NCBI GenBank assembly: GCA_000997405.1
Contig: LCBU01000021.1
Location: forward strand, 1-10,006
DNA from: Candidatus Woesebacteria bacterium GW2011_GWA1_41_7
GTDB taxonomy: Bacteria > Patescibacteriota > Microgenomatia > UBA8517
Reading direction: 5' to 3'
Length of the DNA stretch: 10,006 bases
The position numbers and the translations under genes were made by a program. The first letter of the stretch is position 1. Each line of letters starts with the position of its first letter. Shown in pieces: positions 7,934-9,535 of the stretch. A model generated the notes under the pieces. That model was given only the letters and a program-made list of their open reading frames with translations. It was not told where the DNA came from and did no database searches.

Positions 7934-8512
7934 CTAATCGTCTGTCTCGTGTTCCTCCGTATCCGAAGCTTCTTTTGCATCCTCAATTTCTTCTTCAATA
8001 TCCGGGTTGTCCGAACTAATCCGTTCAAATTCCGAGTGTTGTTCATTAAGTTTATTCTCAAAATCCGCATTTGATTCACCTGTAGCTTCAAAGTTTTCCT
8101 TGGCCTGGTCTACGTTTTCTTTATACTCTGCAACAACCTGCTCTAAATTTTGACCGTTAACTTCCCGCTCTTTTGACAAATCAATAATTTCGTCAGCTCT
8201 GTGATCAATTACGACTTGGTTACTACCGCTTGTCTCCTCGATAATTTTTTCCGACAAGATCTTAACTGAATAAAACGGATCTCCGGGAAGCGCAGCCAGT
8301 GCAATTTGATAGGTTCCGAAAAATATTATCAAAAGCGCCAAGACGGCAAGCGAGACACGGGCAAAACCGCTCAAAAATATTCTTTTGTAGAAAGGCTCTT
8401 TTGTGTCGATCTTTTTGGCAACATCGCTCCACCCGGATGTTTTTAAATGCAGGGTGGCATTTGTCTTTCTGTACTCATTTTTTAGATCTGTCAAAAAATT
8501 ATTATTGCTCAT
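7934..8512 (-). CDS. Probable anti-sigma factor with DUF5667-like extracellular domain
   Basis: 192 residues. The ATG overlaps the sigma-factor stop (ATGA, 8509-8512), the usual arrangement for ECF sigma/anti-sigma pairs. The cytoplasmic N-terminus (1-47) is short and has no His-x3-Cys-x2-Cys zinc motif. One TM spans about 50-72. Right after it is ALAALPGDPFYSVKILSEKI (71-90), the hallmark start of DUF5667 domains, followed by charged helices (about 95-165) and a very acidic tail (EEEIEDAKEASDTEEHETDD). It should hold the sigma factor at the membrane and release it on an outside signal. The acidic exterior suggests sensing of cations or a basic ligand, but this is a guess. The assignment rests on gene coupling and the DUF5667 motif. 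Confidence 0.8.
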   Translation of the reverse strand: MSNNNFLTDLKNEYRKTNATLHLKTSGWSDVAKKIDTKEPFYKRIFLSGFARVSLAVLALLIIFFGTYQIALAALPGDPFYSVKILSEKIIEETSGSNQVVIDHRADEIIDLSKEREVNGQNLEQVVAEYKENVDQAKENFEATGESNADFENKLNEQHSEFERISSDNPDIEEEIEDAKEASDTEEHETDD

Positions 8513-9048
8513 ATATTTCCCTCCAATTTCTTTCTCAATATACCTAATAGCCGATGAACTTTCACACGTATAGCACCTGATTTTTTAGCTGTAATTAAAG
8601 CGATTTCATTAAAAGACAGCTCTTCAAAATACCTCAGGATTATAATTTGCCTATCGTCCTCATCAAGAACCGATAAAACCTGCCTTACTTTACTCATCGA
8701 CTCGTTTCTTAAGAGGTTTTCCTCAATGTTCGTATCCGACTTAAAATTATCTCCGATCGTCAGTTCCAAAGAAATTTCTTTTTTCTTTCTTTGATGATCT
8801 ATTACCAGATTTCTGGCAATTGTATATAAATACGATTGGAATGTTCCCCCCGTTAGTGAAAAGGTTGTGATTTTGTTCCAGGCTTTAACAAAAGTATTCT
8901 GTGTAATATCTTCAGCCAAAAATTCATCGTCAACCAGGTAATAAGTAAACCTATAAATCCTATCCAAAAATATGTTATAAAGCTCGGCGAATGCGTTTTT
9001 ATCACCGACGATTGCCCTTTTTACAAACCTGTTGTAATCGTCTGACAT
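8509..9048 (-). CDS. ECF-family RNA polymerase sigma factor
   Basis: 179 residues from the ATG at 9046-9048. The open frame reaches 9195, but the extra 49 residues would run through the promoter and into the divergent gene. Region 2 spans about 15-90: FAELYNIFLDRIYRFTYYLVDD, then LAEDITQNTFVKAW (44-57), then YLYTIARNLVIDHQRKKKE for -10 recognition. Region 4 spans about 121-176: LSVLDEDDRQIIILRYFEELSFNEIALI and a helix-turn-helix ending VKVHRLLGILRKKL, for -35 recognition. Regions 1 and 3 are missing, as in ECF sigma factors. It is translationally coupled to its anti-sigma gene. A promoter of ECF type, TGTTAC-N16-CGTT, lies in front of it, so it probably drives its own synthesis. Confidence 0.94.
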   Translation of the reverse strand: MSDDYNRFVKRAIVGDKNAFAELYNIFLDRIYRFTYYLVDDEFLAEDITQNTFVKAWNKITTFSLTGGTFQSYLYTIARNLVIDHQRKKKEISLELTIGDNFKSDTNIEENLLRNESMSKVRQVLSVLDEDDRQIIILRYFEELSFNEIALITAKKSGAIRVKVHRLLGILRKKLEGNI

Positions 9049-9057
9049 TACCACACA

Positions 9058-9072
9058 TTCTATCAAATAGAA
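9058..9072. repeat. Inverted repeat over the sigma-gene -10 box
   Basis: TTCTAT (9058-9063) and ATAGAA (9067-9072) are perfect reverse complements with a CAA loop. They overlap the minus-strand -10 element and transcription start of the sigma gene. This could be an operator; an AT-rich match of this size can also arise by chance. Confidence 0.3.
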
Positions 9073-9096
9073 CGAAATATGGGTTGTTTTGTAACA
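9068..9096 (-). promoter_or_regulatory. ECF-type promoter of the sigma/anti-sigma operon
   Basis: On the minus strand TGTTAC (9091-9096), exactly 16 bases, then CGTTCTA (9068-9074). This is the same layout as known ECF promoters (for example TGAAAC-N16-CGTA/C of Bacillus SigW and SigM). The -10 lies 19 bases before the sigma ATG. Its -35 shares a palindrome with the promoter of the divergent gene. Confidence 0.7.
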
Positions 9097-9118
9097 AATT
9101 ATCATACTATCCGTTGTA
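9090..9118 (+). promoter_or_regulatory. ECF-type promoter of the exported acidic protein
   Basis: TGTAAC (9090-9095), exactly 16 bases, then CGTTGTA (9112-9118). The ATG at 9125 is six bases after this -10, so the transcript would begin at or next to the start codon. An 8-bp inverted repeat, TCATACTA (9102-9109) and TAGTATGA (9121-9128), brackets the -10 and could be an operator. Confidence 0.7.
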
Positions 9119-9124
9119 TTTAGT

Positions 9125-9535
9125 ATGAAAATGAAAAAGATCCTGACTACACTTTCGATAATTTCCATTCTTGCTTTCGGGGCAATGTTAGCCAAAACGA
9201 TTCAAGTAAGAGCAAGCTCTCATGACGACCAGGAGGAGAACGAAACCCTTGAAATTGAAGATGAAGAAGAAATTGACGACCAGGAGGAATTAGATGATAT
9301 TTACGAAGATGAATCAGAAGAAGACAAATCCCCAAGTCCGTCTGCCAGTCCTACAGCCAGCCCATCAGTAAGTCCCAGCCCTTCCCCAAGTCCGTCCGCA
9401 AGCCCCAGTGCAAGTCCCTCCGAGACTCCGGAAGCAGTAGTAGAAGAAAATACAAATGACGATGCTTTAAGCGCACTTTCAAATTTGATTAAACAGCTTC
9501 TTCAATTTATTGAGTCAATCGGGCAAAGAGACTAA
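9125..9535 (+). CDS. Exported acidic Ser-Pro-rich protein, likely ECF sigma target
   Basis: 136 residues, the only plus-strand gene in the window. Residues 1-30 are a signal peptide (MKMKK, hydrophobic core, cut near VRA/SS). Residues 33-68 are almost all Asp/Glu, with DDQEE twice, 17 residues apart; the underlying 15 bases are repeated exactly at 9223-9237 and 9274-9288. Residues 69-103 are Ser-Pro/Ala repeats of low complexity. The C-terminus (about 112-134) is an amphipathic helix, DALSALSNLIKQLLQFIESIG. No enzyme domain is seen. The protein is probably disordered, negatively charged and released or held by its C-terminal helix. Its promoter matches that of the divergent sigma gene. Its stop lies one base from the secA stop. 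I recognise no family; an ion-binding or surface-coating stress product is one possibility. Confidence 0.8.
   Translation: MKMKKILTTLSIISILAFGAMLAKTIQVRASSHDDQEENETLEIEDEEEIDDQEELDDIYEDESEEDKSPSPSASPTASPSVSPSPSPSPSASPSASPSETPEAVVEENTNDDALSALSNLIKQLLQFIESIGQRD

Follow-up and report, generated by a model that had tools for sequence, protein, structure and literature searches.

The window analyzed here, a stretch of 10,006 nt, is the whole of contig C21 of the source genome (G000), an assembly of 548 kb that is 84% complete. Towards its right end two divergent genes lie back to back: an ECF sigma factor gene, recognized by Pfam and NCBIfam profiles for regions 2 and 4 (8509..9048, minus strand), which runs leftwards from 9048, and a gene for an exported acidic protein (9125..9535, plus strand; hereafter the target), which runs rightwards from 9125. 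The sigma gene is overlapped by a gene for a single-pass membrane protein with a DUF5667-like outer part (7934..8512, minus strand). The target protein has 136 aa, with an acidic stretch and a Ser/Pro-rich linker, and what were judged by eye to be a signal-like N-terminus and a C-terminal amphipathic helix. The nearest named relatives are found in records of Candidatus Woesebacteria, with sigma factors 69% and 59% identical.

The 180-aa stretch of the sigma factor scores 59.7 bits against PF04542, 37.9 bits against PF08281 and 104.8 bits against TIGR02937 (cut-off 42.9), and there is no region-3 family among its Pfam matches. Possession of sigma-70 regions 2 and 4 and lack of region 3 identify it as an ECF sigma factor, and the predicted AAC-N16-CGT-type promoter before its own gene agrees with that assignment. 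Its best NCBIfam match is to the BldN family (TIGR02952), at 116.1 bits against a curated cut-off of 206.45, and SigW is likewise below its cut-off (102.5 against 209). A second ECF gene in the same genome (C52:895-1380; L044 and L046) is 30% identical, and has no TGTWAC in the 160 bases upstream of it.

The membrane protein is a probable anti-sigma factor, judging from its position and topology; no anti-sigma domain model in Pfam or NCBIfam matched it. Its score against DUF5667 (PF18915), 18.1 bits, lies below the gathering cut-off of 27, and six of eight aligned members (the window protein included) match that family at E 0.01 or better. An AlphaFold2 model (mean pLDDT 77.8, with 56-68 over the first 50 residues) has two N-terminal helices of low confidence, a TM-like helix and a helical outer part, and a fold search with this model gave no match at E 0.001. 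A PG-x-x-(L/F)-Y motif follows the hydrophobic stretch in 18 of 19 loci examined from the sigma clade described below, L092 being the one without it (L009 was not among the 19). At the G004 locus (L037, 8897-9034), the listed frame covers the membrane protein from its TM part onwards (8496-8897) and the N-terminal part is off-frame, owing to a frameshift or an assembly error.

Between the divergent genes lies a 45-bp core (9071..9115) in which two putative ECF-type promoters overlap; read towards the sigma gene, it is AACG-N15-TGTTACA-N15-CGTT. At its center is a shared -35 box, TGTAACA on one strand and TGTTACA on the other (9090..9096), an interrupted palindrome of the form TGT-A-ACA. The target promoter has its -35 hexamer, TGTAAC, at 9090..9095 (plus strand) and its -10 element, CGTTGTA, at 9112..9118, the first C of which is 13 nt before the target ATG. 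The sigma promoter has TGTTAC at 9091..9096 (minus strand) and CGTTCTA at 9068..9074. The two -35 hexamers are offset by one base and overlap by five, with a single central base interrupting the palindrome (TTTGT-A-ACAAA, 9088-9098), and the spacers are 16 bases in both arms (9096-9111 plus, 9090-9075 minus). The initial annotation had proposed two ECF-type arms with exactly 16-base spacers, and both are present with -10 elements where it had placed them; its coordinates for the 12-mer TTTTGTAACAAA need correcting by one base, from 9088-9099 to 9087-9098. A TAGAAT preceded by TGA (9057..9062, minus strand) may be a second, housekeeping-type -10 element of the sigma gene.

The DNA upstream of sigma relatives was scanned in both directions, at 32 loci with TGTWAC-N15-17-CG[TC]N and at 80 loci with a somewhat looser pattern, some genomes being common to both sets; about 10 weaker sigma-relative places had no locus, and their genomes were covered only by the 373-genome pattern scan described below. 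The overlapping pair was found in 15 distinct genomes, namely the 11 that carry the 45-bp pattern (G000, G004, G097, G136, G146, G170, G224, G229, G242, G258 and G317) plus G001, G360 (with a sigma spacer of 17), L086 and L092. In a 43-row tree, for which rows were picked by hand, these 15 and G037, G312, G161, G198 and G059 (the last on a long branch) form one clade of 20 with support of 100/99. A quick 116-row tree of the scanned loci recovered the same 20 plus L097 with a local support of 0.995; L097 was left out of the counts, since only 32 bases of its contig precede the match. Both trees fall short of proving that the shared layout was gained only once.

In all 20 scorable clade members a TGTTACA, always in the same polarity, lies no more than 130 bases ahead of the sigma gene, and both arms are present on the shared box in 15 of them; in the other five (G037, G312, G161, G198 and G059) an arm has been lost or split off. 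Among sigma arms, CGTW occurs at N16 in 17/20 and at N17 in one more, with a stray extra CGTW at N9 in G136, while target arms have CGTW at N16 in 17/20 and at none of the other spacings between 8 and 24. This clade spacing scan used TGTTAC only; the scans open to TGTAAC were the 32-locus, 80-locus and 130-base upstream ones. The arm counts exclude the TGTTAC-N15-CGCC found 273 bases upstream in G198, as well as those matches that precede out-of-clade sigma genes in G072, G093, G150 and G225, and the target arm of L133, which lies outside the clade and has a CGTTACA box, was not counted as shared. Across the 15 shared cases the pairwise identity is 95% in the boxes, and in the spacers 39% compared to the 30% expected from composition. 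Beyond the two nearest relatives, sigma identity to the window protein drops to 38-51%. A single -35 box for two divergent ECF promoters, as suggested by the initial annotation, is thus well supported by the conservation of both the box (20/20) and the complete pair (15/20), and so is the spacing it had described (17/20 for each arm). The promoter pair is also intact in L047 (G258), in which the sigma frame has an in-frame TAG at about residue 134, from either a sequencing error or a decaying gene.

A single genome proves little about chance: TGTWAC-N16-CGTT has two matches in the source genome, both at this site, and the reversed control also has two. The decisive test was the cross-genome count of the two-armed 45-bp pattern (with CGTW ends). 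In 373 genomes of the class it has 11 matches, against four for the reversed control, and all 11 lie directly upstream of orthologs of this sigma gene. Among 379 genomes sampled from the phylum, the pattern was found in G000 and G097 only (control, one), and in none of the 347 that are outside the class. The one-armed motif TGTWAC-N16-CGTW was also counted in 17 genomes, giving 59 matches; the sigma locus accounts for 30, relocated targets (G312:C60 and G198:C29) for two and other places for 27. Used as the proposed search motif for a regulon, it retrieves the sigma locus and the two relocated targets and reveals no wider regulon in these 17 genomes, where the 27 off-locus matches stay below the 90 of the reversed control. 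All five of the off-locus matches that were inspected are inside an open frame on one strand; the relocated G312 promoter also sits close to the end of an opposite-strand open frame. The predicted regulon is the sigma gene plus one exported protein, and no wider one shows, although degenerate motifs may mark further members.

The clade members without the complete shared layout are informative about the individual arms. In G037 there are two promoters about 100 bp apart, each intact. In G312 a DUF5666 target lies about 2 kb away with its own TGTAAC-N16-CGTA, and the sigma gene retains TGTTAC-N16-CGTA, while in G198 an exported acidic protein is encoded on another contig behind TGTAAC-N16-CGTT. 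In G161 and G059 the box and the target arm are kept and the sigma -10 is absent. These cases suggest that each arm can stand alone as a promoter, and the three split ones (G037, G312 and G198) tie the target to the sigma factor independently of a shared box. Behind the target arm of L009 (G059) there is only a very short frame and then, by eye, a GC-rich hairpin, so this locus may have lost its target gene or had it replaced. In the outgroup, TGTAAC-N16-CGT[ACT] directed towards the sigma gene occurs within 150 bases in 17 of 65 loci, with at most one case at any other spacing; the remaining 48 loci lack it, and TGTTAC-N16 occurs in two. Such a distribution would be expected if some members of the wider family were autoregulated ECF factors. 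One Magasanikbacteria outgroup locus (L113) has a TGTAACA box with TGTAAC-N16-CGTC towards the sigma gene and TGTTAC-N16-CGTT in the opposite direction, so the arms overlap as in the clade but with the polarity inverted, which may be due to chance.

The two arms are consistently unequal. All 18 clade sigma arms that have a -10 read TGTTAC, and the target arms read TGTAAC, be they shared (17) or separate (G037, G198 and G312); among outgroup sigma promoters, TGTAAC is the commoner form. Where the box is shared (15 cases), every target arm has a CGTT -10, and the sigma arms have CGTT 11 times and CGTA four times (the N17 case included); the targets of G037 and G312, which are separate, have CGTA. 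A co-variation of CGTA with the sigma factor, raised by the two CGTA promoters of G037, was considered and dropped, as in each of G242, G170 and L086 a single box has CGTA on the sigma side and CGTT on the target side. A hexamer that agrees with TATAAT in at least 5 of its 6 positions occurs within 46 bp after the sigma -10 in 16 of 18 arms, compared to a mean of 7.0 and a maximum of 12 in 300 shuffles of the sigma arms, the only side for which this control was run; on the target side it is found in 1 of 15. This element in the sigma leader probably provides basal, housekeeping-driven expression of the sigma gene. The differences in -35 form, in the variability of the sigma -10 and in the second -10-like site argue against a simple 1:1 output, and the asymmetry probably favors that of the target. 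The target ATG is 13-17 nt after the first C of the -10 in 11 of the 15 shared loci, so the target mRNA would be nearly leaderless. In the other four it is at 44 (G242), 42 (G097), 45 (G360) and 26 nt (L086), with alternative in-frame starts in G097 (GTG at 12) and L086 (ATG at 11).

The element is real and conserved and probably serves as the pair of promoters in an ECF circuit with one target, and we consider it likely that 9071-9115 is a bidirectional ECF promoter whose single -35 box is read both ways by the encoded sigma factor, for its own operon and for the target. Since the targets of the split cases keep their own TGTAAC-N16-CGTW, both arms are most likely read by that sigma factor. 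Holoenzyme carrying it (8509-9048) would recognize the common box in either orientation, leftward binding leading to transcription of the sigma/membrane-protein operon, and so to autoregulation, and rightward binding to transcription of the single exported protein. With five bases common to the -35 hexamers, one holoenzyme would bind at a time, two at once being implausible, and each binding event would yield either regulator or product. The membrane protein encoded downstream would exert anti-sigma control, and when the sigma factor is released and its activity is high, competition between the arms could limit autoamplification. Competition, or a fixed ratio of outputs, as was first envisaged, is plausible; bidirectional promoters of Escherichia coli, which have another geometry, are described in the available part of one report as having too little basal activity for competition (PMC12825309).

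The palindrome could instead be the operator of a dimeric transcription factor, with the -10-like matches incidental, which we regard as very improbable. Interrupted palindromes between divergent genes are typical of operators, and the box is kept in 20/20 members even where an arm is gone; an operator would not account for CGTW exactly at N16 on both sides, for the separated or relocated copies (G037, G198 and G312) that keep TGTWAC-N16-CGTW one way and lack a second arm, or for the like promoters directed towards their own gene in 17 of the 65 outgroup loci, so that this explanation is already disfavored. There is only a slight chance that both arms are promoters for another sigma factor. 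The genome does have a second ECF gene, and TATAAT-like hexamers in the sigma leader would suit the housekeeping sigma; however, the 11 pattern matches are all upstream of orthologs of this sigma gene, the 160 bases upstream of the second ECF gene are devoid of TGTWAC, CGTT is unlike a housekeeping -10, and only one target arm in 15 has a TATAAT-like hexamer.

A weightier alternative, if still an unlikely one, is that two ordinary ECF promoters came to overlap through genome compaction and have no regulatory role as a pair, being kept because loss of the overlap would break both. The genomes are small (0.5-1.3 Mb in the 18 G-numbered clade members), the intergenic region is short, and five of the 20 members manage without the full shared layout. 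Set against this are the retention of the layout in 15/20 at sigma identities of 38-51% and the invariant polarity of the box, with both of which a neutral origin is still compatible. Selection on each arm alone would also keep the overlap, so conservation is no proof of a benefit from sharing as such. Reporters could separate a switch from a neutral overlap, given the conserved asymmetry and the natural split cases.

In autoregulated ECF operons such as that of SigW, the sigma gene is followed by a membrane protein gene and preceded by an AAC...CGT-type promoter. The sigma operon described here resembles the SigW and BldN sigma/anti-sigma operons in both respects, but its apparent regulon is one divergent gene reached through a common box, and the sigma factor is below both cut-offs. 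Among bacterial bidirectional promoters, those described by Warman, Grainger and colleagues have the -10 element in common, with starts mostly 18 and also 10 or 23 bp apart (PMC12825309, PMC10268837, as far as their accessible text goes), and for the common-10 promoters of E. coli mutual exclusion was argued and tested, with competition seen only if activity increases (PMC12825309, same part). As in those promoters, RNA polymerase would be engaged by a pseudo-symmetric element in either of two orientations, but not in both at once. Unlike them, as they are presented in the text available, it is the -35 that is common here and the -10 elements (9068-9074 and 9112-9118) flank the 45-bp core, the starts would be roughly 60 bp apart, the sigma factor is of the ECF type, two mRNAs would result and the geometry is conserved; the core thus has neither a shared or overlapping -10 nor starts at 10, 18 or 23 bp.

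In the hrpL/hrpJ region of Pseudomonas syringae, hrpL is sigma-54 dependent and has been proposed to be repressed by occlusion, and there too the ECF holoenzyme, bound at the promoter of a divergent target, is proposed to affect transcription of its own gene; a common ECF -35 is not described in the part of that report at hand (PMC5263251). The accessible portion of PMC5402319 concerns another kind of sigma factor. No ECF promoter with a shared -35 was found among the literature matches listed (titles and beginnings of abstracts, with subscription journals mostly uncovered), and the matches listed for Patescibacteria together with sigma factors gave two passing mentions. Within these sources a -35-based geometry appears new among bacterial bidirectional promoters, whose descriptions concern the -10, and it supplies a regulatory motif for uncultured Patescibacteria, in records of Woesebacteria, Daviesbacteria, Curtissbacteria and Levyibacteriota. 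Its occurrence in many distant relatives suggests a choice, made by the cell at a single site, between more of the regulator and more of its product. More tentatively, and with a little less than even confidence, such promoters may form a class based on -35 symmetry and acting as a one-polymerase switch in a minimal circuit (either sigma factor or product per recruitment, never both), in which box polarity and the basal sigma start set the ratio and autoregulation is self-limiting. On this reading the switch would go back to the common ancestor of a sigma clade that spans the class, the exported product having switched family since.

The targets behind this promoter belong to several families, with acidic/linker proteins, DUF5666 proteins and others that carry an NHG-x-(Y/F)-VS motif. 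By eye, they have in common a signal-like start and mostly a C-terminal amphipathic helix, which is absent in G360 and G161. The acidic target of the window has no Pfam or NCBIfam family over cut-off and no match to DUF5666 (PF18914), the gathering cut-off of which is reached by the targets of G360 and G312 (two of six proteins scanned). The two NHG-x-(Y/F)-VS proteins that were scanned (G229 and G317) have no Pfam family at E 0.01, and the motif recurs in the exported targets of G229, G317, G224, G146, G136, L092 and L133.
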